DNA of 57,825 nt, from assembly GCA_028282685.1 (NCBI GenBank), contig JANQHK010000132.1:1-57825 (forward strand). The letters run 5' to 3'. Source of the stretch: Phycisphaeraceae bacterium. Lineage in GTDB: Bacteria; Planctomycetota; Phycisphaerae; Phycisphaerales; Zrk34. Positions 798 to 42,343 of this stretch are shown in pieces. Position numbers and translations under genes: made by a program. Below the pieces are notes generated by a model, which was not told where the DNA came from, ran no database searches, and worked only from the letters and a program-made list of their open reading frames with translations. The first letter of the stretch is position 1. The number at the start of each line of letters is the position of its first letter.

Positions 798-1074
798 CAA
801 CAACGACCCGCAGGCAGCGTACAACGCGCGAAACCTCGAGCGATTCAAGGCCGAGCAGCGCGACCGACAGCGTAAGAAGCTCATGGCTGGCAAGGCCGAC
901 CGCGAGCACATGGAGGCCGTGCGCGGCGTGCAGTGGCGCACGCGGCTTACCGCCGTCGAGCGGAAGCTGCTGGAGGTCAAGACGTACCTGCGCTACGACC
1001 CGCAGAACGCCGACCTCCGGGCCGAGGCCGAGGCGCTGGAGGAGATGTACTTGGAGTTGATGGGGGCGGCTTAG
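787..1074 (+). CDS. small coiled-coil hypothetical protein, integrated-element gene
   Basis: This 95-residue protein is very rich in Arg, Lys, Glu and Ala. A probable long helix or coiled coil runs from about residue 15 to the end. Its ATG overlaps the stop of the previous gene, continuing the chain of overlapping genes. It ends 12 bases before the stop of a convergent minus-strand gene. The composition would suit a small structural or DNA-packaging accessory protein of a phage, but nothing in the sequence proves that. Confidence 0.55.
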   Translation: MLTSNNDPQAAYNARNLERFKAEQRDRQRKKLMAGKADREHMEAVRGVQWRTRLTAVERKLLEVKTYLRYDPQNADLRAEAEALEEMYLELMGAA

Positions 1075-1085
1075 CTATACCGGAG

Positions 1086-1511
1086 TCAATCCGAAGACTT
1101 CTTAGCTGCTGTACGGTCTTCGGCGAACTTCCGCATGTCGCGGCGGCTCGCGGTGAAGCTATCGCCAACGATCGTCCAAACCTGCGCCGGACCGAGCAAG
1201 CCGGTATCCGGCAAACCGTCAAGCTCGAATCTAAGCATGGCGACGTGCCCGGGCTTGAGCTCCTGCGTCAGTTCTTGACCGTTGATGGACTGCGGCGAGA
1301 CAATCAGGTGTCCATTCTCGCCCTTCTTCCTCGGCTTGAATCCGATGCCCGACCCGATCACGGGAACATGCCCGACGTTGCAGACTTGCATCACGCCGAC
1401 GTTATGTTCGGTTTCTCTCGCGTCACGATCGACGAGAGAGTAGACGCACGGCCGGACTACGAGGCGGGGCCGCGTCGTGTCTCGCTGGTGGCGGTAGTTG
1501 AGGATACCCAT
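1086..1511 (-). CDS. hypothetical protein in integrated-element end
   Basis: This minus-strand gene encodes about 141 residues from ATG at 1511; a GTG at 1538 would add nine residues. The middle has the feel of a beta-rich domain: NVGHVPVIGSGIGF, then ELKPGHVAMLRFELDGLP, resembling an immunoglobulin-like fold with alternating hydrophobic strands. The C-terminus is basic and helical (TASRRDMRKFAEDR). It is convergent with the three plus-strand element genes and lies between them and the tRNA fragment. I do not recognise a family. The protein-like pattern favours a real gene over a shadow. Confidence 0.5.
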   Translation of the reverse strand: MGILNYRHQRDTTRPRLVVRPCVYSLVDRDARETEHNVGVMQVCNVGHVPVIGSGIGFKPRKKGENGHLIVSPQSINGQELTQELKPGHVAMLRFELDGLPDTGLLGPAQVWTIVGDSFTASRRDMRKFAEDRTAAKKSSD

Positions 1512-1606
1512 ACACCCTAAACATGCACCGCAAAACACTGCCGAGCTAGAACTTGGCGCGATTTTCCGGTACCGTCTGTAGGGTCTCCAGCGGTTGACCG
1601 TTATAG

Positions 1607-1648
1607 CTCTTAATCAGTTGGTTCGGGGTTCGAGTCCCTGGGGGGGCA
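1607..1648 (+). other. tRNA 3'-half fragment, probable att site of an integrated element
   Basis: The bases match the 3' part of a tRNA gene. A CTCTTAA anticodon loop (CTT, lysine type) is followed by a 3' anticodon strand TCAGT, a variable loop, a T-arm CGGGG-TTCGAGT-CCCTG that pairs, and an acceptor strand GGGGGGC with discriminator A. The 5' half is absent: upstream bases do not pair with the anticodon or acceptor strands. This is what a tyrosine-recombinase attachment site looks like after an element has inserted into a tRNA 3' end. The intact tRNA should lie to the left, outside the window. Confidence 0.6.
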
Positions 1649-1851
1649 TTGGCGTCAAGGCCCGCGTGAACCGCGGGTTTTGTCTTTTCCGGCCCGACGA
1701 CGGCAATCCCTATTCCCCCGGCCTGTACGTGGACCCGTTGCGACGGGCTGCGATCCGGGCTCGGTGGTTTAATCCGCTGTCCGGATGTGATAAGATAACG
1801 GTCCCGCCCCATGGTATTGCCCGAGGCCCGTTTTATCCAAGGTATGGCATC

Positions 1852-2730
1852 ATGATCCGACTCCGTTGCCCCCGTTGCGACAGTAAGTTGCGCGTTCCCA
1901 ATTCATACGCGAACAAAGTGATCAAGTGTCCCAAGTGCGATCAGGCGGTGCGGGTGCCTCATCCACCCTCCGAGCCACAGCACGTAGCGCAGGTCCCGCC
2001 GGCACATGGCGATCGGCCCGAATTTCCAGAAGTTCCGCCCGCTCCGGCCGATCCCGCCGAGGCCATGGCGCAGGCGTCGATGCAGAACCAGGGCCCCCCG
2101 CAGAACTATGGCTATGACCCTGCTCAGTACCACCAGGCGTCTGGGCCGGGTTACTATCAACAGGCGCCGTACCACCGGCCTCGGCTGCGCCGCCGCAAAT
2201 CCGGTAATACCGCAATGCTTCTTATGGGAATCGCCATGGTGGCGGTGGTGATCGTGGCGGTACTGGCCGTCATACTGTCGAACCGGGAGGCCGCGCCGCC
2301 GCCGCCGGTGGTCGAGAAGCCGGTGGTGCGACAGCCGCATCCCGATGAGCGTGTCCCGCCCAACAAAACGCCCTACAAGGCCGTCATTCCCGAGGGCGCC
2401 AAAACCACCCCGCATTACGACATCGAGCGCTTTGAGGCCTGGATACTGACCGATCAATCCAACGACCAGGAAAAGGCCTACATGACGCGCCTGAAGATGA
2501 AAAACATCACCAGTGAATTCCACGGCTACAAAATCTTTTACGATTACTGCACCTCGAACGGCAATCCGGTGGAGACGATTCAGGATTACGTCACGCTGCA
2601 TCCGGGGCAGAACTACCGCCTCGACAGCAAACCCCCGGCGTTTCCGGCCGTGGTCGCCAAGCAGTTCACCGAGGTGCACGTGCGCGTGGAAATGGATCCG
2701 AACATGACCGCCCCGGCCAAGGGCAGTTGA
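1852..2730 (+). CDS. zinc-ribbon protein with a single membrane helix
   Basis: This is a 292-residue protein starting at ATG 1852, where the zinc finger begins directly (MIRLRCPRC). Residues 1-40 form an MJ0042-like ribbon with paired cysteines, CPRC and later CPKC. A long Pro/Gln/Tyr-rich linker follows, then a transmembrane helix at roughly residues 121-143, then a C-terminal extracytoplasmic domain of about 150 residues with mixed alpha/beta character. Planctomycetes carry many such anchored zinc-ribbon proteins of unknown role. A longer in-frame start at 1594 would read through the tRNA fragment and is rejected. Confidence 0.8.
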   Translation: MIRLRCPRCDSKLRVPNSYANKVIKCPKCDQAVRVPHPPSEPQHVAQVPPAHGDRPEFPEVPPAPADPAEAMAQASMQNQGPPQNYGYDPAQYHQASGPGYYQQAPYHRPRLRRRKSGNTAMLLMGIAMVAVVIVAVLAVILSNREAAPPPPVVEKPVVRQPHPDERVPPNKTPYKAVIPEGAKTTPHYDIERFEAWILTDQSNDQEKAYMTRLKMKNITSEFHGYKIFYDYCTSNGNPVETIQDYVTLHPGQNYRLDSKPPAFPAVVAKQFTEVHVRVEMDPNMTAPAKGS

Positions 2731-2780
2731 TGATCGACCCGCGCACCGGGTGTACGCGGCAACACAAAGCGGCAACATAA

Positions 2781-2812
2781 ACAAGTTAACTAATCAACCC
2801 GCTAACCCGATA
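2781..2812 (-). repeat. degenerate octamer array after the Gfo/Idh gene
   Basis: This is a short stretch built from variants of an 8-base unit (TTAACTAA, TCAACCCG, CTAACCCG on the plus strand). Read on the strand of the downstream minus gene it follows that gene's stop codon. It belongs to the same family as the perfect CCAATTAA array near 48.3 kb. Confidence 0.5.
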
Positions 2813-2817
2813 TCCGA

Positions 2818-3948
2818 TCACCGATCCGACTTGGCGATCAGGTCTTTCAGGAAGGCGTCGAAGGCGCTGCGGTCCATGGGCAGTTCGATGCGCTGCCGGG
2901 TGACGCCGGCCATGAGCATGGCGTTGGCCAGTTCGATCGAGTGGATGCCTTCCTCGCCGGGGGCGACCAGTTCGGCCTTGCCGAGAATCGCATCGGCGAA
3001 ATTCTGCGTGATCGTCTTGTGATGCGGCGGGGGGTAATCGGGCGGGGTGACGTCGTCGACCCGGCAATCGATCACCGGGAACATCTCCTGCACGCTCGCG
3101 GAAAACTCGGGCACGGCGACGGCGGTTTGCGTGAACTGGAGTTTGTAGATTTCGCCGGTTTCGCTGTTGGATTCGTAGACGACCTTGCCGCGGCTGCCGG
3201 TGATTTCCAGCCGGTTGGTGCCGGGCGCTTCGCCGGTGGAGGTGATGAACACGCCCGACGCGCCGTTGGGATAACGGAAGATCGCGGTGACTTCGTCTTC
3301 CACCTCGATGTCGTGGTGCCTGCCCAGGTGGGTATCGGCGATGACCGACTGGGGCATCCCGGCCCACCAGATCATCAGGTCGATGTTGTGGGGGCATTGG
3401 TTGATCAGCGCGCCGCCGCCCTCACCTTTCCACGTGGCGCGCCACGAGCCGGTGGCGAAGTAGTAGTTGGGTCGGAACCAGTCGGTGATAATCCAGTTGA
3501 CGCGCATCACGTCGCCGAGTTGGCCGCTTTCGATCAGTTGCTTGATGTATTTGTGGGCGGGGCGGGTGCGCTGCTGGAACATCGCCGCGTACACCCGGTC
3601 CGGGTGTTTGGCGTGGAAATCGTTGACCTGCTGGGCGGCCTGTGCGGTCACGGCCACGGGCTTTTCGGTCAGCACGTGCAGGCCGCGCTGCATCGCCGCC
3701 ATCGACAGCTCGGGGTGGGAGTAGTGGGGGGTGGTGATGAGGACGGCGTCGATTTTTCGCGATTCCATCAGGGCGATGCCATCGTCGAAGCCCTCCACGC
3801 CGTAGGTCTCCACGGCCCGTGTGCGATTGGCTTCGACCTGGTCGGCCACAGCGACGAATTCCAGCCCCTCGACGTCCTTCATGTACGGCATGTGCACCTT
3901 GGAGGCGATGCTGCCGCACCCGATGATGCCCAGTCGAACGGTGTCCAT
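2818..3948 (-). CDS. Gfo/Idh/MocA family oxidoreductase
   Basis: This is a 376-residue NAD(P)-dependent oxidoreductase, probably acting on a sugar or inositol-like substrate. The N-terminal Rossmann fold shows GCGSIA at residues 10-15. The family EKP motif with its conserved lysine is at 95-97. The C-terminal alpha/beta domain contains GGGALINQCPHNID at 177-190, whose histidine and aspartate usually line the active site. The start at 3948 is supported by GGAG about 9 bases upstream. The gene stands alone on the minus strand, divergent from the aminotransferase gene, so the substrate cannot be inferred from context. Confidence 0.9.
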   Translation of the reverse strand: MDTVRLGIIGCGSIASKVHMPYMKDVEGLEFVAVADQVEANRTRAVETYGVEGFDDGIALMESRKIDAVLITTPHYSHPELSMAAMQRGLHVLTEKPVAVTAQAAQQVNDFHAKHPDRVYAAMFQQRTRPAHKYIKQLIESGQLGDVMRVNWIITDWFRPNYYFATGSWRATWKGEGGGALINQCPHNIDLMIWWAGMPQSVIADTHLGRHHDIEVEDEVTAIFRYPNGASGVFITSTGEAPGTNRLEITGSRGKVVYESNSETGEIYKLQFTQTAVAVPEFSASVQEMFPVIDCRVDDVTPPDYPPPHHKTITQNFADAILGKAELVAPGEEGIHSIELANAMLMAGVTRQRIELPMDRSAFDAFLKDLIAKSDR

Positions 3949-4085
3949 GTGTTCCGGCTCCTTGTGCGCTAATAGAGTGCATGTTTATCTCAGAATTCAG
4001 TACCCCGGACAAGCCCGTTGATCGGCGCAGCGCCCGACGATATCCTACTGCCGGTCGGTTCACCCTGATTTTCACGGAGTTCGCC

Positions 4086-5279
4086 ATGTTTGAACAAGTT
4101 ACCGTTGCGCCGCCGGATCCGATCCTTGGCCTGACTGAGCGATTCAACGCCGATCCCAGTCCCGACAAGATCAACCTGTCGGTGGGCGTGTACAAGGACG
4201 CCGAGGGCAAGACGCCGATTCTCCATGCCGTCAAAGAAGCGGAGAAGATTCTCCTCAAGGAGGAAACCAGCAAGGGCTACAAGCCGATGACGGGCGATCC
4301 GGCCTACGGGCGCTGCGTGCGCGAATATCTGTTCGGCGAATCGCATCCCTACCTGGACGATCCCCGCGCGGTTACCGCCCACACCCCCGGCGGGACCGGC
4401 GCGCTGCGCGTTGCCGGGGACTACCTGGCGAAAGTGCACAACGCTCCCACGCTGCACCTGTCCGATCCCACCTGGGCCAACCACAAGGGCGTGTTCACCG
4501 CGGCGGAGCTGCCGCTGGACAGCTATCCCTACTTCGATAAGACAACCAATACCGTCGACTTCGCCAAGATGATCGAGGCCATCGGGCAGATACCGGCCGG
4601 CGACGTGGTGCTGTTGCACGGCTGCTGCCACAACCCCACCGGTGCGGACCTGAGCAACGAGCAATGGCAGCAGGTGGGTCAACTCCTCAAGGAGCGCGGC
4701 ATTCTTCCGCTGGTCGATTTCGCCTACCAGGGCTTCGCCGAGGGCGTGGAGGAAGACGCCCAGGGCTTGCGCACCCTGGCGAACATCTGCGATGAGTTGA
4801 TCGTCTGCTCCAGTTTCTCGAAGAACTTTGGTTTGTACAACGAGCGCGTGGGTGCGATCACAATTGTGGCAGCCAACGCCAAACAGCAAGCCGCCGTCAC
4901 CAGCCAACTCAAGCTGTGCATCCGCACCAATTACTCCAATCCCCCCGCACACGGCGCGGCCATCGTGCAGACGGTTTTCAACGATGCGGACCTTCGCCAT
5001 CGCTGGCACGATGAACTGACGGCCATGCGCAACCGCATCAACAGCACACGTCAACTGCTGGTCGACAAGCTGGCCGAGCATAACGTGTCGGGCGATTATT
5101 CGTTTATCACCGCGCAGCGCGGCATGTTCAGCTTCTCCGGGCTGACGCCGGAGCATGTGAAAACCCTGATCGATGAACACGCGGTCTACATCGTCAACTC
5201 CGGGCGTATCAACGTGGCCGGGATCACCGAGAAGAACGTCGATCGGCTGTGCCAGGCGATCAAGGCAGTGGTAGGATGA
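4086..5279 (+). CDS. aspartate/aromatic aminotransferase (class I, PLP-dependent)
   Basis: This 397-residue enzyme has the usual AspC/TyrB length and would transfer amino groups between aspartate or aromatic amino acids and 2-oxoglutarate. Visible residues are HNPTG at 182-186, the PLP-contacting aspartate near 211 (LVDFAYQGF), and the Schiff-base lysine at 246 within SSFSKNFGLYNERVG. The arginine typical of alpha-carboxylate binding lies in the C-terminal part. ATG 4086 was chosen because GGAG sits 8 bases upstream and it matches the family N-terminus; an in-frame extension to 3981 is rejected. Both aspartate and aromatic activities are possible. Confidence 0.92.
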   Translation: MFEQVTVAPPDPILGLTERFNADPSPDKINLSVGVYKDAEGKTPILHAVKEAEKILLKEETSKGYKPMTGDPAYGRCVREYLFGESHPYLDDPRAVTAHTPGGTGALRVAGDYLAKVHNAPTLHLSDPTWANHKGVFTAAELPLDSYPYFDKTTNTVDFAKMIEAIGQIPAGDVVLLHGCCHNPTGADLSNEQWQQVGQLLKERGILPLVDFAYQGFAEGVEEDAQGLRTLANICDELIVCSSFSKNFGLYNERVGAITIVAANAKQQAAVTSQLKLCIRTNYSNPPAHGAAIVQTVFNDADLRHRWHDELTAMRNRINSTRQLLVDKLAEHNVSGDYSFITAQRGMFSFSGLTPEHVKTLIDEHAVYIVNSGRINVAGITEKNVDRLCQAIKAVVG

Positions 5280-5281
5280 CA

Positions 5282-5311
5282 GGTTAATTGGTTTATTGGT
5301 TAGCTGGTTAA
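5282..5311 (+). repeat. degenerate octamer array after the aminotransferase gene
   Basis: This is a run of TTAATTGG-like units (GTTAATTGG, TTTATTGG, TTAGCTGG) starting two bases after the aminotransferase stop codon. It has the same orientation relative to the gene as the arrays near 6.1, 27.1 and 48.3 kb. The remaining bases up to 5426 show no gene. Confidence 0.6.
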
Positions 5312-5426
5312 GTCGGGTGCGCAGCGCAGCGAACGAATTTAGCGGGCGATCGCAGATCGCCAGGTTTGCCGTGACCCGAAGGGAAGCGCGTTGATTGAAT
5401 GACCCGATCTGCAACGGAGCGGCCCC

Positions 5427-6116
5427 ATGACGGACCTACTGATCGGCATCGGGATCGGCGCGGGCGCCCTGATTGTGCTCTTCGTCCTGCTGCGGATGGG
5501 CCGGGGCAAGCTGTTCGGCTCCGACTCCAGCGTCACGATTCACCAGACCATCGAGCGCATGCGGGCCGTTGGCGAACTGGTGGCGTTCAAGGTCATCAGC
5601 CGATCGATCGTCACCGCCGAATCGCACCCGTTCGGAAGCTTCGGCAAATCCTGGCTGACGATGTTCGTCTCCTCGAAGAAGATGTCGGTGATCCTGGAAT
5701 ATCACGTGGACTTCAAGTTCGATCTACGCGATCCGGGATTTGAGATCGCCTCGCGCGGCGCGGACTTTGGGGTGAAGATGCCGCCCTGCAAGTACGACAT
5801 CCACGTGCGGGACATCAAGCTGTACGACGAGCAGGCGGCTCGCGTGTTTCCGATCCTGCTGGGCGATATCGCCGAAGGGTTGGGACCGGGTTTCAGCATC
5901 GAGGAGAAGAACCGGCTGATCGCCGAGGCACGCACGCAGGTCGAGCAGCAAGCCCTGGAATTGAGCGATGAGCTTCAGTCGGAGGTGCGGTCGTCGGCCA
6001 CGCGCACGCTGACCAGCATCGCGCGCGGATTTGGTGTGGAGCATATCGAAGTCGAATTCACCGAACGCCGGATCGAGACACCGGAGTCGGTGACGGTGGA
6101 GGGCAAGGACGGGTGA
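5427..6116 (+). CDS. DUF4230-like membrane-anchored protein
   Basis: This is a 229-residue protein with one N-terminal membrane helix (about residues 5-24, ending in a basic stretch) and a C-terminal domain that would lie outside the cytoplasm. The pattern of a short anchor followed by a TIERMRAVGELVAFKV-type strand-helix segment and a charged helical tail matches DUF4230 proteins as I know them. Their biochemical function is unknown. ATG 5427 has a GGAG 8 bases upstream. An octamer array begins immediately after the TGA stop. Confidence 0.7.
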   Translation: MTDLLIGIGIGAGALIVLFVLLRMGRGKLFGSDSSVTIHQTIERMRAVGELVAFKVISRSIVTAESHPFGSFGKSWLTMFVSSKKMSVILEYHVDFKFDLRDPGFEIASRGADFGVKMPPCKYDIHVRDIKLYDEQAARVFPILLGDIAEGLGPGFSIEEKNRLIAEARTQVEQQALELSDELQSEVRSSATRTLTSIARGFGVEHIEVEFTERRIETPESVTVEGKDG

Positions 6117-6155
6117 ATTAGTTAACTGGTTGATTGGTTGATTGGTTCGTTAATT
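6117..6155 (+). repeat. degenerate octamer array after the DUF4230-like gene
   Basis: Tandem TTGATTGG-type units (TTAACTGG, TTGATTGG twice, TTCGTTAA) start directly after the stop codon. It is one of five such arrays in the window placed at gene 3' ends in the same gene-relative orientation. Confidence 0.65.
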
Positions 6156-6163
6156 CGATTCCA

Positions 6164-6200
6164 AGCCGGACCTGAATCGCAAGGCGGTGAAGGTCCGGAT
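6164..6200 (+). repeat. REP-like palindrome, CCGGACCT family
   Basis: The inverted arms CCGGACCT (6166-6173) and AGGTCCGG (6191-6198) form a perfect 8-bp stem with a 17-base loop. The same palindrome occurs at 48191-48216, and a related sequence occurs inside leuC near 36590. It follows the octamer array and precedes prfB. Confidence 0.65.
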
Positions 6201-6305
6201 GCAATATCGGGGCAATGACGGATTCCCTCTGGGCCCCGGGCCCCGCCCCTGCTATAATCCCACGCTTTGATTGAATCACAGAGCATCACCCCCCCGAGCA
6301 AGACC

Positions 6306-7416
6306 ATGATTCACGACAACATTTCCGGAACGCTGGACGAGTTGCGGGCGCGGATTTTAACGATCCGCGACTCTCTTTGACTGCGATGCCAAAGCCAAAG
6401 AAATCGCCCGGCTCGAAGAAAAAATGAACGCCGCCGACTTCTGGAACGACCAGGACGCCGCCCAGAAGGTGATCGGTCGGATGAAGGCGCTCAAAGCGCA
6501 GGTGGAGCCGGTGCGCGCATTGCTGGAGCAGATCGACGAAGCGGCGCTGCTGTGGGAGATGGCCGAGGAGGAGGGCGACCAGGACGCGCGTGAAGAAGTC
6601 GACAAGCAATTGGTCGAACTTGAAAAGACCATGGAGAAGGTGGAGCTGCGCTCTTTGCTCAGCGGCAAGCACGATGCGGGCAACTGCTACGTGACGATCT
6701 ACTCCGGCGACGGCGGCACGGAGGCCAACGACTGGGCCGAGATGATGCTGCGGATGTACCTGCATTACTTCGATGTGCAGGGCTGGAAGGTCGAGGAACT
6801 GGATCGCCACGATGGCGAGGAAGCGGGCATCAGCGATGTCACGCTGCACGTGCGCGGCGCTTACGCGTATGGCTACATGAATTGCGAACGGGGCACGCAT
6901 CGGCTGGCGCGCGTCAGTCCCTTCAACGCCCAGGGCAAGCGCCAGACCAGCTTCGCCACGGTGGATGTGGTGGCGGAGGTGGAGGATGCCAACACCACCG
7001 TCAACGAGAAGGAATGCGAGATCGAGTTTTATGCGCGGTCCAGCGGTCCGGGCGGGCAGAACGTGAACAAGGTGGCCACGGCCTGCCGAATCACGCACAA
7101 GCCGACCGGCATCCAGGTCGTCTGCTCCAACGAGAAGAGCCAGGTGCAGAACAAGAAGATCGCGTTGTCGATTCTCCAAGCGAAGCTGGAACAGATGGAG
7201 GAGGAGAAGCGAGAGGCGGAGCGGCAGTCGGAACAGGGCGATCTGAAGATGGGATGGGGCACGCAGATTCGCAGCTACGTGTTCTACGACAACCGCGTCA
7301 AAGACCTGCGCACCGGCCATGAGGTGGGAAACCCCCAGCGCGTGCTGGATGGCGAGTTGCAGGGCTTCATCGATGCGGAGTTGCGCCGGCGTCGCAAGGT
7401 GGCGCAGCAGGCGTGA
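6306..7416 (+). CDS. prfB: peptide chain release factor 2, with programmed +1 frameshift
   Basis: RF2 terminates translation at UGA and UAA. The gene has the classic autoregulatory layout: 24 codons from ATG 6306, then CTT TGA C at 6375-6381. Skipping one base at 6378 joins the rest, giving 369 residues. In the joined protein the stop-codon recognition motif SPF is at about 204-206 and the catalytic GGQ at 249-251, both close to their E. coli positions. High RF2 would cause termination at the in-frame UGA; low RF2 would permit frameshifting. The strong internal Shine-Dalgarno seen in E. coli is not obvious here. Confidence 0.93.
6372..6381 (+). other. prfB: programmed +1 ribosomal frameshift site in prfB
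   Basis: The slippery CTT codon is followed by TGA and C, the conserved CTTTGAC core of prfB recoding sites. The upstream bases read CCGCGACTCT rather than a purine-rich AGGGGG element. Confidence 0.85.
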
Positions 7417-7419
7417 CGT

Positions 7420-7445
7420 GCATGATTTTCATGCTTTCTTAATTT
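7420..7445 (+). terminator. intrinsic terminator after prfB
   Basis: GCATGA and TCATGC (7420-7425 and 7429-7434) form a 6-bp stem with a TTT loop, followed by a T-rich tract. It lies four bases after the prfB stop codon. The rest of the gap to 7657 shows no gene. Confidence 0.55.
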
Positions 7446-7657
7446 TATATAAATTGCTGTTTTGTATGTGCTTGCGTCCTTTTTCAGCGCCCCGGATTAA
7501 GTCCCTGTGAGATTTTTGTCTGGTCAGGCAGGGTGGTGATTCATACAATGGCCGGTTAATTCCGGCGATCATCGGCCCGGGTGGTAGGGCAGGGATGAAT
7601 GGCCCAGTTGGCTCTCGTCGTGACAGCCCCAGTAGAGGCAGCCCCGAGAGGGCCCGG

Positions 7658-10600
7658 ATGATTACCATGAAAATCGACCCGCGTTTTACCCACGGAACGG
7701 GGCGGGAGGTCTATACCGGGAATGAGTTGCTGGTCAAGGGCGCGCTCGAAACGCCCGGCGGGGTGCACCTGCTGACCGGATACCCCGGTTCTCCCATTGC
7801 TCCTTTCTTCGATACCTTCCAGGCGATTGGACCGTTGCTCCAGGAGCACGGCGTTGTGGCGCGCATGGCCAACAACGAAGCGCTGTCCGTGGCGATGGTC
7901 AACGGCGTGCAGTTGATCGAATGCCGTGCCATTACCGCGTTCAAAAGCGTCGGGCTGCACGTTGCTTCCGATGCACTGGCGCTGGGTGTGATGGCCGGGT
8001 GCAAAGGCGAGGGCGGCGCGCTGATCGTCTGCGGTGATGATCCGTGGAGCGATTCGACGCAGGTTCCCGCCGACAGTCGCTTCCTTGCCGAGCATCTGCG
8101 CCTGCCCATGCTCGAGCCGAGCACCGCGCAGGAAGTGAAAGACTGGATCGGTCTGTCGTTCCAACTCGGTAAGGCCGGCAACATTTACATGGGCTACATG
8201 ATGCCCACGTCGCTGGCGGATGGCGGGGGTTCGGTGGAGGTCAGGCCCAACGAGTTTCCCAAGCTGAATGCGCGCGAGCGCAGCTCGCTCAGTTACGAGC
8301 GCGACATCGAGCCGCATCTCGATCAGTTTGTCCTGTTGCCGCCGCGCACCTGGGACCGCGAATGCTCGATCGCCGAGCGCCACGCCGCGGTCTGCGCCGA
8401 GGCGCGCCGGCTGGGCATCAACACGATCATCCACAAGCCCCAGAAGGGCGAGCGCGTGCCGATGGGCTTCATTGCCGGCGGCCTGGCCTACGCCTACCTC
8501 GTCCATGCCCTGGAAGAACTGGGTTTGAGCGGGCGATTGCCGATTCTCAAGCTCGGCCTCAGTTACCCCGTGGACGGCCAGCTCGTCAGCGAGTTTGCCG
8601 AGCAATGCGACCAGTTGATCGTGGTTGAGGAGCGTCGCAGCTTCGTGGAACGCCAGGTTCGTCAACTGCTGGCGCCGGCCATTCAGACCGGGCGTCTGAC
8701 GTGCGGGATATGGGGCAAGCAGTTCCCCGATGACCTGCAGGGCTTGCCGGAAACGCGCGGCCTGCATCCCTCGCTGCTGATCGATCGGCTGGTGCCGCTG
8801 ATCCGCCGTCATCCGCGGTTGCCGGTGGAACTGACCAACGGTCGCATGGATGCGGAGCTCGAGTTGATCCGGAACACCGCTGACGTGGAAGTCAACGTCC
8901 CGGTGCGCACGCCGGCGTTTTGCCCGGGTTGCCCGCACCGCGATTCTTCCAGCGCTTTGCTTGAGCTGCGCCGCGATCTGCTCGACGCCGATTACATGCA
9001 GGCCCATCACCGGCATAAACCGGTCGATCTGGTCTGCCACGGCGATACCGGCTGCTACACCATGATGATGTTCGAGCCGAACAAGCCCCTCATGCACAAC
9101 TACTCCGGCATGGGGCTGGGCGGCGGCACCGGCGCCGGCATCGATCCCTTCATCGAAAACAAGCAACTGGTCTTCATGGGCGATGGCACGTTTTACCATT
9201 CCGGCCAGATCGCCATCTCCAACTCCATCGCCTCCGGGCAGGACATCACCTACATCATTCTCGACAACCGCACCACCGCGATGACCGGCCACCAGCCCAA
9301 TCCCGGTGTCGAGTTTGACATGACCGGTCAGCCCATCGTTCCGCAGGATGTCGAGCGCATTGTGCGGGGGATGGTGCCGAAGAAACTGAAAAGCGATGTG
9401 CGCGTGGTGCGGATCGATCCGGCCGACCGCAGCGGTTATCGCAAGATGCTCGAGAGCACGATTCTGGCCGACGGCGTGAAGGTCGTCATTGCTGACAAGG
9501 AATGCGGCATCACCTTCCATCGCCGCCGCCGAAAGGCAGAGAACCGCGAGCGAGAGAAGCAGGGGTATCTCACCAAGCAGACCCTGATGAACGTCGCCGA
9601 GGAAGTCTGCGAAAACTGTCTGGAATGCACGAACCAGACCGGCTGCCCGGGACTGAAAAGTGTCGATACCGACTACGGCCCCAAAGTGCAGACCGACTTG
9701 AGCTGGTGCGTCAACGACGGTGCCTGCGCCAAGATTTACGCCTGCCCCTCCTTCGAGCAGATCACCATTCATCGCAGACAACCGGCGCGCAGCGGCGATG
9801 AGTTCGTCCAGCTCGACGATCTGCCCGAACCCCCGCGCCCGTTGCACGCCGACCAGGATGTCTGGCGGTGTTACCTGACCGGAGTCGGCGGGATGGGCAT
9901 CGGCCTGGCGACAAGCATTCTCGTCACCGCCGGTCACCGCATGGGTTACAACGTCCAGTTCCTCGACAAGAAGGGGCTGGCGATCCGCAACGGCGGGGTG
10001 TATTCGCAGATCGTCTTCACGCGCGAGAAAAAGAAAGCGGCACTCACGCCGACCATTCCATTCGGCAAGGCCGACCTGGTCCTCGGTGTGGATCTGCTCG
10101 AAGCGGTGCGCAGCGTCGATCCGCGGCGTCCGTATCGCGTCGCTTCACCGCAGACCACCGCCGCCGTCGTCAACACCGCCAAGACGCCGACCATCCTCGG
10201 TCTGATGGGCCGCGATGATTTCGATCCGGCCGAGTTGGAAACCGCCCTGCGCGGCCGTGTCCGCGAAGACCGCTACATGGGCTTCAACGTCGGCGATCTG
10301 TGCGAGCGCGTCCTCGATAACAAGCTCTACGCCAATGTCATGATGCTCGGCATGGCCTGCCAGCTCGGTTTTCTGCCGCTGAAGATCGAGGCCATTGAGC
10401 AGGCGATTCGCACGTTGGTCCGGCGCGATCTCGATCGCAACCTGCGCGCGTTTCACATCGGGCGAAAGATCGTCGTCAAGCCCGGCCTGTTCGTGGTCGA
10501 AGCCCGGCACAAGTACGAATCGGCCCGGCAGGCCCTGCGGCGCAAGTCCAACATGGTTCGCACCCGCTACGGCAAAAAGCGCGGGGACCTGATGGCACGG

Positions 10601-35454: not shown

Positions 35455-36945
35455 ATGGCCATGACACTGACCGAAAAAATCCTCGCCCGCCATGCCGGGC
35501 GAACCAGCGTTGAACCCGGCGAAAACGTCTGGGTCAATGTCGATATCCTCATGACCCACGATGTCTGCGGGCCCGGCACCATCGGTATCTTCAAGGAACG
35601 TTTCGGACCCGACGCGAAAGTCTGGGATGCCGATCGTGTGGTCATCATCCCCGATCACTACATCTTCACCGCCGACGAGAAATGCCATCGCAACATTGGC
35701 ATCCTGCGCGATTTCGTATCCGAACAGGGCATCAGGCATTATTATGATGTGGATTTTCTGAACACCGCCGCCGGCTCGGGCATGCCCAATCCCTATCGCG
35801 ATCCGACCCAAACCAACTACAAGGGCGTCTGCCACAAGGCCCTGCCCGAAGAGGGCCACGTTCGGCCCGGTGAAATTCTCCTCGGCACCGATTCCCACAC
35901 CTGCACCGCCGGCGCCTTTGGTCAGTTCGCCACGGGCATCGGCAATACCGACGCCGCCTTCACACTCGGCACCGGCAAAACCTGGCTCAAGGTCCCCCCA
36001 ACACTCCGCTTTGTGTTCCACGGCTCCATCCCCCCGTACCTCACCGCCAAGGACCTCATCCTCGCCGTCATCGGTGAAATCTCCGTCTCCGGCGCCACCT
36101 ACAAAACCATGTCCTTCGCCGGCGAGGGCATCGCCTCCCTCACCCTCGAAGACCGCATGACACTGACCAACATGGCCATCGAAGCCGGCGGCAAAAACGG
36201 CGTCTGCGATGTCGATGAAAAAACGCTCGCCTACGTCCGCGCCCGGTCCAATCGGCCCGACTGGGAAGTGCTCACCGACGATCCCGATGCCGCCTTTGAA
36301 GCGGTGTACGAGTTCGATCTCAATGCCCTCGAGCCGCTCGTCGCCAAGCCCCACTCGCCCGACAACAAAGACCTCGCCCGCAACTGCACCGATACCCAAC
36401 TCGACCGCGCCTACATCGGTTCGTGCACCGGCGGTAAAATCACCGACATGATCTTCGCCGCCGCCATACTCGACGGCGAACAGGTCGCCATCCCCACCTT
36501 CGTCGTGCCCGGCTCCACCGAAGTCCACGCCGACATGCAACGGCTCAACCTCTTCGGCCTGCCCCTCGGCCAAACCCCCGATTCCGTCAAGCCGGACCTG
36601 AGTCCGGGTCCGCGAGGACAAACATCCGGATCAGACGAATCCCTGGATTCCAGCGCCAATCGCTCCATCGAACAAATCCTCCTCGACGCCGGCTGCCAAC
36701 TCGGACCGTCCGGCTGCGCCGCCTGCCTGGGAGGCCCCGCCGACACCTTCGGCCGACTCAACGAACCGATCGCCTGCATCTCCACCACCAACCGCAACTT
36801 CCCCGGCCGCATGGGCCACAAGGAAGCCGGCGTCTATCTCGCCAGCCCGCTGACTGTCGCCGCCAGCGCCCTCACCGGCCGCATCACCGACCCCCGCGAT
36901 TACATCAGCGAACCCATCACCACCGGCACCGCCGGAACGGTGTGA
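35455..36945 (+). CDS. 3-isopropylmalate/homoaconitate dehydratase large subunit (aconitase family)
   Basis: This is a 496-residue LeuC/HacA-like subunit that isomerises 2-isopropylmalate or a homologue using a 4Fe-4S cluster. The cluster cysteines are C324 (GSCTGGK), C421 and C424 (GCAACLGGP). ILLGTDSHTCTAGAFGQFATGIGNTD is the substrate-binding motif region. Oddly, about 30 residues (roughly 374-404, Ser/Gly/Asp-rich) are inserted before the last cysteines and are encoded by a REP-like sequence. No small subunit (leuD) gene follows in this window. Leucine and lysine-pathway roles cannot be separated. Confidence 0.85.
   Translation: MAMTLTEKILARHAGRTSVEPGENVWVNVDILMTHDVCGPGTIGIFKERFGPDAKVWDADRVVIIPDHYIFTADEKCHRNIGILRDFVSEQGIRHYYDVDFLNTAAGSGMPNPYRDPTQTNYKGVCHKALPEEGHVRPGEILLGTDSHTCTAGAFGQFATGIGNTDAAFTLGTGKTWLKVPPTLRFVFHGSIPPYLTAKDLILAVIGEISVSGATYKTMSFAGEGIASLTLEDRMTLTNMAIEAGGKNGVCDVDEKTLAYVRARSNRPDWEVLTDDPDAAFEAVYEFDLNALEPLVAKPHSPDNKDLARNCTDTQLDRAYIGSCTGGKITDMIFAAAILDGEQVAIPTFVVPGSTEVHADMQRLNLFGLPLGQTPDSVKPDLSPGPRGQTSGSDESLDSSANRSIEQILLDAGCQLGPSGCAACLGGPADTFGRLNEPIACISTTNRNFPGRMGHKEAGVYLASPLTVAASALTGRITDPRDYISEPITTGTAGTV
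36589..36630 (+). repeat. REP-like element inside the leuC-type gene
   Basis: The bases starting AAGCCGGACCTGAGTCC match the intergenic palindromes near 6166 and 48191 (AAGCCGGACCTGA). A further small hairpin, GTCC GCGA GGAC, follows. Here the element is within the coding frame and is translated. Confidence 0.6.
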
Positions 36946-37154: not shown

Positions 37155-37174
37155 TGCTACATGCTAGTGTAGCA
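37155..37174 (+). promoter_or_regulatory. inverted repeat upstream of the restriction-like operon
   Basis: TGCTACA and TGTAGCA are perfect 7-base inverted arms around TGCTAG. It sits 33 bases before the ATG at 37207, with GATAAT (37193-37198) between. It could be an operator for a controller or the operon's own protein; no controller gene is visible nearby. Confidence 0.4.
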
Positions 37175-37206
37175 GTTGCGTCAGCATTATGCGATAATCC
37201 GCCGCC

Positions 37207-38571
37207 ATGAGCCAAGAACCAACATTCATAAGCACAGGAACAAAGACGGGGGAGATTGATGTTCGTCTGAGTTATAAAATTGTCGAGTTGTTTTCTGAGG
37301 GGCTTTACGCTAGCCCGAACAAGGCCATCGAAGAATTGGTCGCCAATTCCTTTGATGCTGGGGCACAACAGGTTGCTGTATTTCTATCAGCAAACTTTCA
37401 CGAACAGGCCGCAACCATCTGCGTCCTTGATGACGGCGAGGGGATGGATGCAGACGGACTGAACCGACATTGGCTCATTGGAATAAGCAATAAAAAAAAT
37501 CTCGCCATATTGCCCAAAGGCAGACAGCAGATAGGGAAGTTTGGCATTGGAAAATTGGCGACCTATGTGTTAGCCAGTCACTTAACACACATCAGTAAAA
37601 AGGACGGCAAATTCTATTCGACTTCAATGGATTATAAGCGGATTGACAAGCGAGTTGAACAAGGTGTTGAGCCTAAAACGCCAATCAGGATCGCACTCCG
37701 TGAACTGACCGAGAAGGACGCAAAATCTGCCTTGGTCACATGGACTGGAGCAGCAACCTTTAAGGCCTGTGGCATGAAATTATTCGGAAGAGGCGCGGTG
37801 CCCTCTTGGACTTTTGCAGTTCTCTCAGGCCTCAAGGAAAAGGTGCATGAGATCAGAAGGGGAACGCTTAAATGGATACTCTGCACAGCCCTTCCGCTAC
37901 GCCCTGACTTTGCAATCTACTTAGATGGTGAAAAACTCCAACCGAGCAAGCTTGGTAAGGGACGGATTAAAAGGTGGATCATAGGGAAAGATATTAAGGC
38001 TATTGACAAACCAGGCCCCAATGGTTTGACCATAAACAATGATCCAAATCGAGACAAAACTGATGAGCATTACTATGGCCTAAGCCATCCTGATCTTGGT
38101 CGGGTTACCGGGTACATGGAACTTTATAAAGACTTGCTTACGGGCAAATCAGATTCAATAGATCGAAGCCACGGTATTTTTGTTTATGTACGTGAACGGT
38201 TGATCAACATCGCTGATGGTCACTTTGGCATTTCACCGAATGACCTCAAACATGGCGCGTTTAATCGTTTTCGACTAGTAGTGTACATGGATGGCTTGAA
38301 CGAAGAAATACGGTCGAGTCGCGAGTCTCTCAGGGAAGGCCCTATACTTAAGGATGCCCAAAATCTTTTTAAAGCATTATTCAATGTTGCGCGTAAGACA
38401 TACGAGGAACATGTAGCTGGCGAAGATACTGGTGCTGCACTTGCCCGTAAGCTTGGCGGCAGTCCGTCCAGTCTTGCGCGCCGCCCAATTATTGAGCTTG
38501 CTCGAGCCGTACTCCCAAGGCAAGATAAAATCCCGGTATATAGCTATCCCCCCTGCAGCCACAGAAGCTGA
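37207..38571 (+). CDS. GHKL ATPase module of a restriction-like protein (N-terminal fragment by frameshift)
   Basis: This is a 454-residue reading frame with an Hsp90/MutL/MORC-type ATPase. N box AIEELVANSFDAGA (40-53), G1 LDDGEGMD (74-81), and the lid/G2 GRQQIGKFGIGKLA (105-118) are visible. A transducer-like domain follows. The last coding residues (after CCC CCC at 38548) are out of phase. The authentic protein would continue in the +1-shifted frame with PPAATEAEIDQI, giving about 853 residues in all. Base composition is clearly lower in GC than the flanks, as expected for a transferred gene. Confidence 0.82.
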   Translation: MSQEPTFISTGTKTGEIDVRLSYKIVELFSEGLYASPNKAIEELVANSFDAGAQQVAVFLSANFHEQAATICVLDDGEGMDADGLNRHWLIGISNKKNLAILPKGRQQIGKFGIGKLATYVLASHLTHISKKDGKFYSTSMDYKRIDKRVEQGVEPKTPIRIALRELTEKDAKSALVTWTGAATFKACGMKLFGRGAVPSWTFAVLSGLKEKVHEIRRGTLKWILCTALPLRPDFAIYLDGEKLQPSKLGKGRIKRWIIGKDIKAIDKPGPNGLTINNDPNRDKTDEHYYGLSHPDLGRVTGYMELYKDLLTGKSDSIDRSHGIFVYVRERLINIADGHFGISPNDLKHGAFNRFRLVVYMDGLNEEIRSSRESLREGPILKDAQNLFKALFNVARKTYEEHVAGEDTGAALARKLGGSPSSLARRPIIELARAVLPRQDKIPVYSYPPCSHRS

Positions 38572-39769
38572 GATTGATCAAATAGTTGCTAGCCTGGAGA
38601 AACGGGCAGAGACACCTGAACAATTCGTGACCGGAATCGCATTCTCCTATGATGCAACTAATAATGACGGCATTGCAATTTATGATTCGTGTACCGGCCA
38701 GCTCAGAATTAATGGCCTGCACCCGTTTGTCGGTGCATTCTTTGATGAATTTACAAGCAAATCGAGCGGTCTTCCACTCGAAATGTTTGCTATGGCAGAA
38801 GTGCTTCTCGAATCACATCTATTTCAATCCGGGCTAAAACAGGGACATATAGATTTTGTAATGACCGCACGCGATCGACTACTCCGGCATGTTGCACGCG
38901 AATCTGGTAGGCGTACAGCCCTAACGACAGCCAACGCTCTTAGGAATGCACGAAACGATAAAGAAAAATTAGAAATTGAGGTTGTTGAATCATTTCGTAG
39001 TCTGGGCTTTGATGCAACTCGGATTGGGGGAAATGGCAAACCCGATGGACTTGCAAAAGCACATCTCAGCCCAGATGAGAATAATACTTCCCGTCGATAT
39101 TCTGTTACTCTGGAAGCCAAAAGCAAGGCAGATGGTGCATCAGGTAAAAAAGTAACTACTAAAACTGCAGGAATCTCAACACTTGCACGCCACCGAGACG
39201 AATTAAAATGCGAGCATGCAATTGTAGTCGCGCCTGCATTTAGTCACACGCCCGGAAAAGCTAGCTCACTATACAAAGAAATCACTGCGGATCGCGAGAA
39301 AGTGGATAGTGATGGCAATAGCCGTACTATTACAGCCATCCACATTGATGATCTTGCGAGATTGGTTCAGTTGCGTCCCGTAAAGCGGCTTGGGCTAGCA
39401 AGAATCCGTGAGTTGTTCATTAAGTGCAGTATGCCGGAAGAGTGTAAAGCGTGGGTCGACGAGATTGAAAATGAGGTTGTCGCGAAACCACCTTACGAGA
39501 AAATCATCAATGCAATCCACAATCTGCAAGCAGATGATCGGAGTGAACCAGTTGGATACAAAGAGCTCCGCAATGAGCTTAAGCATGCCAAACCAGCGAT
39601 TCACTATTCCAGTGCTGACGACTTGATGGAACTTTGCAAGGGCATGGCACAAATGGCTCCAGGCGAAATCACCGCTGGCAATGCAACTGTAGAACTCGAC
39701 ACGAGCCCTGAGAATGTGCTTGCTGCAATCGAAGCCGCCACCAAGGCGCACATTGCAGGAAAATCATAG
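38432..39769 (+). CDS. PD-(D/E)xK nuclease-like C-terminal module of the same protein (frameshifted)
   Basis: This is the continuation of the preceding ATPase in another frame. Authentic sequence probably begins at about 38549, and the in-frame residues before that are out-of-frame reading of the upstream gene. The domain near residues 610-640 of the joined protein reads GKPDGLAKAHL, then YSVTLEAKSKADG, a D...ExK pattern of the restriction endonuclease fold. It is followed by LKCEHAIVVAPAF and an alpha-helical C-terminus. It would be the DNA-cleaving part driven by the ATPase. If unjoined, its start is only an internal ATG. Confidence 0.7.
   Translation: MLHLPVSLAAVRPVLRAAQLLSLLEPYSQGKIKSRYIAIPPAATEAEIDQIVASLEKRAETPEQFVTGIAFSYDATNNDGIAIYDSCTGQLRINGLHPFVGAFFDEFTSKSSGLPLEMFAMAEVLLESHLFQSGLKQGHIDFVMTARDRLLRHVARESGRRTALTTANALRNARNDKEKLEIEVVESFRSLGFDATRIGGNGKPDGLAKAHLSPDENNTSRRYSVTLEAKSKADGASGKKVTTKTAGISTLARHRDELKCEHAIVVAPAFSHTPGKASSLYKEITADREKVDSDGNSRTITAIHIDDLARLVQLRPVKRLGLARIRELFIKCSMPEECKAWVDEIENEVVAKPPYEKIINAIHNLQADDRSEPVGYKELRNELKHAKPAIHYSSADDLMELCKGMAQMAPGEITAGNATVELDTSPENVLAAIEAATKAHIAGKS
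38548..38553 (+). other. C6 run carrying an apparent +1 frameshift
   Basis: Removing one C from this run joins the ATPase frame directly to the nuclease frame (TAT CCC CCT GCA GCC). It may be a genuine frameshift mutation, a switchable tract or a sequencing error. Confidence 0.65.
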
Positions 39770-39791
39770 AATTTCAAGCTGTTCCCCACCT

Positions 39792-41051
39792 ATGATACAG
39801 AAACACACAATGTTAAAGTCGCACAATAAGACGATCTACGAGACTCTGGGGCGCAGCCCTATACATCCATTTCCTGCGCGTATGGCTCCCGGCATAGCAC
39901 TAGATGCGCTTGGCGAGCGTAACGCTCCGATAACAGTACTTGATCCAATGGCAGGCTCCGGAACAGTACTTGCTGTCGCTCGCGCAAATGGCCATCGGGC
40001 CATAGGCTTTGACATAGACCCACTTGCTGTACTGCTTTCAAATGTTTGGACTCGGACAACTGATGCTGATGCGGTTTATGATAAGGCCATTGAAGTACTT
40101 AATCGCGCCAAGTCTTTATTTTGCACGCTGTCATATCGGGATGCATATCCGATTGGTAGCAACAACGACACTCGAAAGTTTATTCGTTTTTGGTTTGACA
40201 ACTATGCGCGAAAACAGTTGGCCGCCTTGTCTATATGTATTCGTCGTGTTCGTAGCAAAGCAATTCGTAATGCGTTGTGGTGCGGATTTTCTCGTCTCAT
40301 CATAACTAAAACTGCCGGGGCTTCGCTCGCGATGGACCTGTCGCACAGCAGGCCGCATAAGTCATACACCAGCGCCCCAGTAAAGCCATTCTCACAGTTT
40401 GTTTCGGCGGTTGAAAGGGTCGTTTCCAACTGTCCTCAGAAGGGGAGTTCCCCAGTAGGACCTATGACTATTGTGAAGCATGGGGATGCAAGGAATATGC
40501 CGATTGCAACGGAGTCGATTGACCTGGTTTTGACTTCACCGCCCTATCTGAACGCCATCGATTACATGCGATGCAGTAAGTTTACGCTTATTTGGATGGG
40601 CTACAGCATAAGTCAGGTACGAGACATTCGTGGTGATAGTGTCGGAGCCGAAACTGCTTCAAGGGAAGCAATGGAGGCATCGTGGGTTCTGGAGCTGCTT
40701 GCATCAATGGATCTGAAACCGAAGCTGTCTGCACGCAACACCAACATCTTGGCTCGGTATGCAATGGACATGGACAAAGCATTGGCTGAGGTTGCCCGAG
40801 TGTTAAAAGATAGAGGCCAAGCAGTTTATGTGGTTGGCGACTCGACCGTACGAGGAACATTTGTGCGTAACTCAACAATCGTGTCTTCCGTTGCGCAAAG
40901 GCATGGCCTTGTCCTAGAAAAAAAATGGTCGCGAGATTTACCTGCTAGCAGGCGGTATATGCCACCCCCAAAAACAACGGCAGAACAAACCTCAATTGAA
41001 AACCGGATGCGTCACGAGGTTATATTGGCATTCACTAAATCTACTGCATGA
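39792..41051 (+). CDS. DNA methyltransferase (N6-adenine/N4-cytosine type)
   Basis: This is a 419-residue methyltransferase from ATG 39792; ATG 39810 is an alternative. The SAM motif VLDPMAGSGTVLAVARANG (about 50-66) is followed by IGFDIDPLA, and the catalytic motif is LTSPPYLNAIDYMR with TSPPY at 248-252. SPPY favours N4-cytosine or N6-adenine methylation. The order SAM motif, then catalytic motif, is seen in other amino-methyltransferases. It starts 22 bases after the nuclease frame ends, so it is probably the modification partner in a restriction-like operon. GC is low like the previous gene. Confidence 0.85.
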   Translation: MIQKHTMLKSHNKTIYETLGRSPIHPFPARMAPGIALDALGERNAPITVLDPMAGSGTVLAVARANGHRAIGFDIDPLAVLLSNVWTRTTDADAVYDKAIEVLNRAKSLFCTLSYRDAYPIGSNNDTRKFIRFWFDNYARKQLAALSICIRRVRSKAIRNALWCGFSRLIITKTAGASLAMDLSHSRPHKSYTSAPVKPFSQFVSAVERVVSNCPQKGSSPVGPMTIVKHGDARNMPIATESIDLVLTSPPYLNAIDYMRCSKFTLIWMGYSISQVRDIRGDSVGAETASREAMEASWVLELLASMDLKPKLSARNTNILARYAMDMDKALAEVARVLKDRGQAVYVVGDSTVRGTFVRNSTIVSSVAQRHGLVLEKKWSRDLPASRRYMPPPKTTAEQTSIENRMRHEVILAFTKSTA

Positions 41052-41117: not shown

Positions 41118-41180
41118 ATTATTGATTGTCAACTGCAATGATGACTGGATTCCCGACTACTCGGGAATGACGGCCCCTTC
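41118..41180. repeat. REP-like palindrome at the right edge of the accessory island
   Basis: ATTCCCG and CGGGAAT surround ACTACT (41150-41169), making an inverted repeat of a kind often dispersed in bacterial genomes, next to a GATTGTCAACTGC-type run. No gene is seen between 41052 and 41263. Confidence 0.5.
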
Positions 41181-41263
41181 GACTCGCACAACTCACTCAG
41201 GGCTTACGCGACACTTCCATGCGCATGGGGCGGTCGGTTGCTCCTTATATGGAGGGCCGACTT

Positions 41264-42343
41264 ATGGACGAACTCGATGGCAACCTGTTGGAGGCGTGGG
41301 AGCGGGTGTGGGCGCGGTGCGAGGCGGACCCGGATGAGGCGCGGCGGAGGTGGCTAAGAAGTGGTAATAAAATGCTTAAACGCCCGCCAAGGGCGTGGTG
41401 CCTGAGCGTGCGGGCATCGGATCATCGCATCGGACAGACCTACGGCTACATCGAAGACGAGCAGGCGTGGCGACGCGGCGGTGCGCACGCCGTGGTCCTG
41501 GATGGGTGGCATATTCAGGAATTGTGCCGACCTGTTTTTATTCCCAAGCCGGGCGTGCTTTTGAAGGAGGCGGCGGCGATCCTGGGGCGCGATCCGGCGA
41601 CGTTGGCGCAGTGGTGGATGCCGGAGCGGGCGAAGCGTGGGCCTGGCCGAAGCAGGCGGGATGGGTCGGTGGCGTTGTTCGAGGAGATCACCGAGCCGGG
41701 CAGGGTGCTGGGGGTTCGGTTTGAGCCGGCGCGGATTCACCGGAGCCGGGGGGTGCCGAAAGCGGTGGTGTGGACCGAGCGTGCGGTTGATCCGGGAGCG
41801 GATTGCGGGGTGGGGCCGCATGCGCTTTGGGGGACGCTTTGGCATTGGTTTTATCAAAGGGTGGATGAAGGGATGGAGGTGGAGCTGGAGCGCGTGCCTC
41901 GGAAGAGGCAGGGGACGGCACGGGACAGTGCGGCGGGGTGGTCGTGGGTGTGTCCGGGTCGGGTGGATGAGCGGGGGCGGAGGAACCCTTGCGGTCGGCT
42001 GGCGCATCGACTGTATCTGCCGTTGCCGATGATGACGCTGGGCAGGTGGATCGGCGAGCGGAGGACGTTGAAAGTGGCGGGGGAGGCGGGGTTGCACTGG
42101 CGGCCGGGGCAGGCCGCCGGGCTTCGGGCTGCGGGTGCCGGGGGCGGGGGGATGCAATTGGCGTGTGCGCGATGTTGGCAGGTGAGGTCGCAAACGTTTA
42201 CCAACGACAACGGCGGTTGGGATGAGGTGATCGGCTATTTAAGCGGAGGGTTTTTGTACGGCCGCGAGGTGCGCAAGCCGGATTGGTTCGGGTATGAGAG
42301 GAAGAGGAGGCGGAAGGGGGGGAAGGAAGGAAGAAGGGATTAA
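41264..42343 (+). CDS. unrecognised protein with HTH-like and zinc-ribbon-like segments
   Basis: This is a 359-residue basic protein. ATG 41264 has GGAGGG 7 bases upstream. The middle reads LLKEAAAILGRDPATLAQWW, resembling a small helix-turn-helix of the excisionase/MerR type. The C-terminal half has WVCPGRVDERGRRNPCGR and LACARCWQV, paired cysteines of a zinc-ribbon kind, then a KRRRKGGKEGRR tail encoded by a repetitive run. GC is high, unlike the preceding methyltransferase. It may be a DNA-binding protein, but I do not know the family. Its location suggests an accessory role. Confidence 0.5.
   Translation: MDELDGNLLEAWERVWARCEADPDEARRRWLRSGNKMLKRPPRAWCLSVRASDHRIGQTYGYIEDEQAWRRGGAHAVVLDGWHIQELCRPVFIPKPGVLLKEAAAILGRDPATLAQWWMPERAKRGPGRSRRDGSVALFEEITEPGRVLGVRFEPARIHRSRGVPKAVVWTERAVDPGADCGVGPHALWGTLWHWFYQRVDEGMEVELERVPRKRQGTARDSAAGWSWVCPGRVDERGRRNPCGRLAHRLYLPLPMMTLGRWIGERRTLKVAGEAGLHWRPGQAAGLRAAGAGGGGMQLACARCWQVRSQTFTNDNGGWDEVIGYLSGGFLYGREVRKPDWFGYERKRRRKGGKEGRRD

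Follow-up and report, generated by a model that had tools for sequence, protein, structure and literature searches.

A restriction-modification-type gene pair joining a GHKL ATPase-nuclease to an amino-methyltransferase in a Phycisphaeraceae bacterium

Genes and domains of the locus

The window analysed here covers positions 1 to 57,825 of contig JANQHK010000132.1 (assembly GCA_028282685.1) of a Phycisphaeraceae bacterium, in which positions 37207-41051 hold a restriction-modification (R-M)-type pair of genes, both on the plus strand. Gene 1 encodes, in this order, a MORC-like GHKL+S5 ATPase, a helical middle part, a PD-(D/E)xK nuclease and a winged helix, and gene 2 encodes a DNA methyltransferase (Table 1). 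An earlier note on this DNA, made from the letters and their open reading frames (ORFs), had described a GHKL ATPase that continues after a frameshift into a nuclease domain with a D...ExK pattern and is followed by a TSPPY methyltransferase.

The first ORF of gene 1 (37207-38571) matched Pfam PF13589 (HATPase_c_3) at E 1.9e-24, which confirmed the GHKL ATPase with the N, G1 and G2 boxes that had been read in it. Among the relatives, the key residues of the Bergerat motifs and the S5 lysine show little or no variation (56-57 of 57), the lysine itself, K314, being kept in all 57. A full-length model was made for the closest relative, L023 (851 aa; pLDDT 81, pTM 0.43), and the best folds found with its residues 20-406 were those of MORC3, MORC4, SMCHD1 and MORC2, at Z 18-20.6 over about 300 residues; TRAP1 and Hsp90 trailed at Z 17-18, so that the lead of the MORC proteins is modest. 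The MORC S5 motif GhXhhpXXRhl was met in full by none of the 57 relatives and in all but its polar position by 42, that position being polar in none.

The second ORF (38432-39769), which carries the conserved remainder of gene 1, matched no Pfam family above cut-off. Modelled separately, the C-terminal part encoded in the window itself (m98ad670d672f, from 38900-39769; pLDDT 93.1, pTM 0.89) was closest in fold to the FokI cleavage domain (Z 15.9; 153 residues aligned at 2.4 A, 18% identity), followed by BspD6I (Z 14.6) and HindIII (Z 14.2), with further nucleases below Z 9; the nuclease prediction thus came through the structure search on which it had been staked. The predicted catalytic residues are E 38972, D 39044, E 39113 and K 39119, and their columns are kept in 56, 55, 58 (as E or D) and 58 of the 58 members compared, so the D...ExK pattern is real and belongs to a conserved E-D-[ED]xK set. 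At the sequence level a profile search reached HindIII (E 0.0012), the AKS motifs falling in line, and the Pfam model FokI_cleav_dom was weakly matched by three of the 58 members (best E 8.5e-4), the window scoring 11.1 bits against a cut-off of 25. Judging by its modelled fold, the C-terminal winged helix probably binds DNA.

Mrr_cat was also matched weakly, by 18 of the 58 nuclease domains (best E 3.2e-5), and AspBHI and MspJI were among the weaker fold matches. Both would speak for a type IV-like system, akin to Mrr, that depends on modification and cuts methylated DNA. We consider such a system very unlikely, since the fold agrees far better with FokI, BspD6I and HindIII and since a methyltransferase next door is the rule in this family, whereas type IV systems need no adjacent cognate methyltransferase.

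Full-length alignment with relatives showed that the window holds one surplus base at the site of the frame change, and bore out that the GHKL frame runs on past it into the nuclease frame. The intact relatives use a single frame of about 850-907 aa and are 45-70% identical. Identity to the relative L009 is 63.5% on one side of the frameshift and 64.7% on the other, and there is no other stop; since both halves are equally conserved, the break is either a recent mutation or an assembly error, which the data do not separate. If real, it would leave only modification in this genome, and this organism may have lost the nuclease and kept the methyltransferase. A decayed R-M system of this kind, with a dead nuclease gene and the methyltransferase as a solitary epigenetic enzyme, has in our judgement a substantial chance, if somewhat below even: the frameshift is confined to gene 1 and gene 2 is open, and nuclease genes are likewise broken beside open methyltransferases in two relatives, L042 (split, its pieces separated by foreign ORFs) and L079 (split). 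The equal conservation of the two halves nevertheless argues for a break that is recent or artefactual, and the explanation concerns the state of the window copy, not the system. The least credible explanation is a programmed frameshift that yields two products, the ATPase alone and the ATPase-nuclease; the frames do overlap and are both otherwise open, but the intact full-length relatives use one frame and no slippery site is evident at the break.

The gene 2 protein matched Pfam N6_N4_Mtase, and its orthologues, 42-69% identical, adjoin relatives of gene 1. The start consistent with these relatives is the ATG at 39810 (MLKSHN...), which puts the intergenic gap at 40 bases; the TSPPY methyltransferase is where the earlier note had placed it, downstream of gene 1, but not after the 22 bases given there. 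A solved N4-cytosine methyltransferase was among the weak matches of a profile search (E 6.6e-5), and the mark predicted from sequence is more likely N4-methylcytosine (m4C) than N6-methyladenine (m6A).

Table 1. Positions of the genes, domains and other features in the window
Feature	Position	Strand	Basis or remark
GHKL ATPase-nuclease gene (gene 1)	37207..39769	+	one frameshift near 38515; relatives uninterrupted
GHKL ATPase domain	37312..37713	+	Pfam HATPase_c_3; boxes EELVxNSxDAGA (N), DDGxGM (G1), QIGKFGIGK (G2)
S5/transducer part	37714..38424	+	invariant Lys (GKS...GRSHG-FVYVR-RLI), near-MORC motif; structure match
Frame change site	38512..38521	+	frames compared with L009, L010, L011, L012
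PD-(D/E)xK nuclease, FokI/BspD6I/HindIII type	38915..39457	+	model m98ad670d672f; FokI fold match; HindIII by sequence
C-terminal winged-helix domain	39479..39736	+	ORC/MCM winged helices, linker-histone fold, Z 7-8.5, model residues 194-279
Amino-methyltransferase (gene 2)	39810..41051	+	DPMAGSGT motif I 39942-39965; TSPPY motif IV 40533-40547; about 195 residues between
Inverted repeat TGCTACA-tgctag-TGTAGCA	37155..37174	.	upstream of gene 1

Relatives and their methyltransferase partners

A search of the phylum identified four planctomycete genomes in which a relative of gene 1 is uninterrupted and has an orthologue of the methyltransferase behind it. With an alignment of these four relatives as query, 71 loci, mostly full length, were found in GTDB genomes of bacteria and archaea; a contig scan with the single window protein had found none, its query patterns being too specific, unlike those of the four-member alignment. 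Viral contigs of IMG/VR added three full-length loci (L137, L138 and L139). The family is spread patchily over about 20 phyla, which is the pattern of mobile R-M systems. The tree of the relatives mixes phyla, with 33 changes for 19 groups against a minimum of 18; this fits horizontal transfer, even though bins and paralogues contribute changes too. Plasmid and phage records gave distant matches to the ATPase domain only, besides a gene on Priestia plasmid NZ_CP083270.1 (L141, 4786-6849) annotated 'restriction endonuclease', whose nuclease part alone matches the family and near which no methyltransferase is annotated.

Counting the window, 60 of 72 loci (83%) have a methyltransferase no more than 700 bp away, so that homologues do pair with a methyltransferase, as the earlier note had expected. 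The partner is downstream in 36 of these 60 loci, upstream on the same strand in 17 and on the opposite strand in seven, and a TSPPY methyltransferase adjoins all three full-length viral loci. At least three types of partner occur: most have the motif order I-IV, those of L066, L067 and L070 (and, judged by their start, those of L082 and L138) have the order IV-I, and those of L061, L081 and L083 are C5-methyltransferases. The pairing thus persists through differences in gene order and changes of partner type, which would not be expected of chance neighbours. Among the 12 loci without a partner by this count, four (L013, L024, L052 and L080) reach a contig end, L041 is a remnant, L016 has a helicase gene in between, in L072 the methyltransferase adjoins a second copy, and L061 and L081 possess C5-methyltransferases, either missed by the filter or located farther off; one operon among these exceptions is divergent, and three further loci are taken up below.

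A Z1-domain SF2 helicase is added in a minority of loci (L010/L036, L016, L042, L049, L051 and L054), and the prevalence of the form that lacks it suggests that the helicase is dispensable for the system.

Several other genes were observed near the relatives. The Z1-domain helicase is followed in four loci (L042, 16858-17322; L049, 12325-12786; L051, 9460-9927; L054, 12325-12804) by a protein of about 155 aa (MIKEFEFYHG...IYIKHS), two copies of which were tested and gave no Pfam or PADLOC match. In L137, on a contig classed as viral, a C5-methyltransferase-like gene comes after the pair, as does a Vsr-like gene. Beside the gene 1 relative of L017 lies a defence island (899-8001) that holds a second GHKL system, composed of a C5-methyltransferase, a BbrUII-like GHKL protein and a Vsr-like protein, together with apparent type I R-M genes.

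Composition and edges of the island

The gene pair lies in an island with a GC content of 0.476, against 0.596 and 0.624 in its flanks, in agreement with the sharp drop reported at first. It is bordered by leuC on one side and, on the other, by an uncharacterised ORF and then a sodium:solute symporter gene. Repeats had also been claimed at both edges, and a search for edge repeats specific to the system found none. At the downstream edge (41144-41173) there is one copy of a palindromic repeat of about 28 bases, of the TTCCCGACTACTCGGGAA type, which recurs at 23 other places of the genome, and at the upstream edge a 34-base partial match to one other place; neither was retained as a feature of the system, the one being a copy of a genome-dispersed repeat and the other a partial match only. 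The inverted repeat upstream of gene 1, for which an operator role had been suggested, does exist, but the relatives have no counterpart at the same place; an inverted repeat with arms of at least 6 bases turned up in 36% of shuffles. On present evidence it appears not to be part of the system.

A comparison with an empty site was impossible, because no conserved region lies downstream of leuC: within the family leuC is kept and nothing 3' of it is, except for a distant relative of the neighbouring 374-aa ORF. This ORF (41219-42343) has no Pfam match, and its 39% identical relative (L121, 4407-5444) lies some 2.5 kb past leuC in a second genome of the family. About 27 extra residues (36555-36660, around PDSVKPDLSPGPRGQTSGSDES) lie in frame within the window's leuC (35455-36945); four relatives from the same family or order lack them, and part of the insertion matches short stretches at eight other places of the genome. 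This gives the impression of a dispersed element inserted in frame, comparable to the palindromic elements of Rickettsia.

Proposed mechanism and comparison with known systems

From the pairing of the genes, the folds of the domains and the conserved catalytic residues of both enzymes, we think it probable that the pair is a type II-like, ATP-dependent R-M system in which a GHKL dimer gates two FokI-like nuclease domains. GHKL dimers close upon binding ATP, and FokI nuclease domains cut as dimers, a partner being needed for cutting both strands; a single chain that carries both a GHKL and a FokI-type domain points to closure driven by ATP as what brings the nuclease domains together. The methyltransferase would mark a specific site in the host's own DNA, probably with N4-methylcytosine. 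Its partner would be a homodimer, each chain made up of a MORC-like GHKL+S5 clamp, the helical middle, the FokI-like nuclease and the winged helix. On unmodified DNA, ATP binding would close the GHKL dimer so that it encircles or loops the DNA, and closure would pair the two nuclease domains, which would then cut both strands, probably some way from the site recognised; ATP hydrolysis would reset the dimer. Methylation of the site would block binding or closure. We infer in this way that the protein dimerises under the control of ATP and cleaves DNA, and that the system protects against phage.

Several observations weigh against such an ATP-dependent R-M system. Gene 1 of the window is frameshifted, a target-recognition part was not located, and the full-length model, with a pTM of 0.43, gives no reliable arrangement of the domains. 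Moreover, three relatives (L043, L048 and L071) are intact and truly without an adjacent methyltransferase; a related methyltransferase is present elsewhere in the genomes of L043 and L048, and none was found in that of L071 at E 1e-6.

A DNA looping or clamping role for MORC-like ATPases in restriction systems has been proposed since 2008, mostly on the strength of gene neighbourhoods. In the present family such a system is pared down to two genes, and its nuclease is of an understood type, which opens the role of the ATPase to direct tests of whether a FokI-type cut is triggered when ATP closes the dimer and whether methylation stops it. Such tests would also be informative about the origin of the response of eukaryotic MORC proteins to methylated chromatin. 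More tentatively, the protein might be a natural ATP-gated FokI, whose MORC-type clamp senses unmethylated sites and pairs the nuclease domains by dimer closure or loop capture; we put the chance of this clearly below that of the general R-M reading and slightly below that of a decayed copy in the window. If true, ATP-dependent restriction enzymes would include a separate class that works without a translocating helicase, is widespread in bacteria and archaea and has so far gone unnamed.

PADLOC and NCBIfam models recognised gene 1 solely through its ATPase part, and neither these databases nor Pfam, as searched, hold a model of the combination; since there is no dedicated model, defence-system annotation probably overlooks or shortens the family. 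A report of a GHKL ATPase combined with a FokI-type nuclease was not found in the literature searched, which did not extend to REBASE and most subscription journals. GHKL ATPases in R-M systems and GHKL ATPases fused to PD-(D/E)xK nucleases are known, and what may be new is the combination with a FokI-type nuclease.

In overall plan the family resembles paraMORC3/GHKL-Shedu proteins (Iyer et al. 2008, PMC2292703; PMC12137116), which also join an N-terminal GHKL+S5 ATPase to a C-terminal PD-(D/E)xK nuclease in one chain. In VcSduA of V. cholerae, a GHKL-Shedu protein, the ATPase mutant E27A and the nuclease mutant K557A both lose phage defence, and the nuclease has been proposed to be under the control of the ATPase (PMC12137116), so that VcSduA may serve, by analogy, as a precedent for the ATPase-nuclease logic. 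This shared plan (PMC12137116) and the three intact relatives without an adjacent methyltransferase would suit a Shedu-like, ATP-gated defence nuclease that senses DNA ends or phage DNA structure, with the methyltransferase as a fellow traveller. We think this unlikely, as the Shedu nuclease is of another type (DUF4263/SduA_C, matched by none of the 58 members at E 0.05) and as the methyltransferase adjoins 83% of loci with its order and type repeatedly changed. The family also differs in its winged helix and in its near-constant partner.

BbrUII/HgiDII enzymes (NCBIfam NF050001; PADLOC REase_II PDLC03419, PDLC03485) likewise have a GHKL-like N-terminus in a restriction enzyme, and BbrUII-like relatives in L014 and L084 also adjoin a methyltransferase. 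The window protein, however, matches only about 130 ATPase residues of the model (positions 11-138 of 659) at 72-73 bits against a cut-off of 550; in profile comparison the C-terminal parts of the BbrUII-like relatives do not match the window family, and one of five BbrUII-like proteins matches SduA_C. Membership was rejected in both groups because the nuclease differs and, for BbrUII/HgiDII, also because the score lies below cut-off.

With FokI, BspD6I and HindIII the family has in common the nuclease fold and the P-D...[ED]xK site; FokI-type recognition domains were not seen in it, and the ATPase clamp and winged helix are joined to the nuclease instead. With MORC2, MORC3 and SMCHD1 it shares the fold of the GHKL+S5 module and nearly the S5 motif, from which it departs in the never polar position (0/57), and a nuclease replaces the CW or hinge domains. 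The theme of GHKL ATPases in R-M systems was already described by Iyer et al. 2008 (PMC2292703), so the earlier note was right that the theme is known and this exact form poorly studied. The Z1-domain SF2 helicase carried by a minority of relatives links the family to the MORC/paraMORC operons of these authors (PMC2292703), from which the present system differs in having two core genes only.

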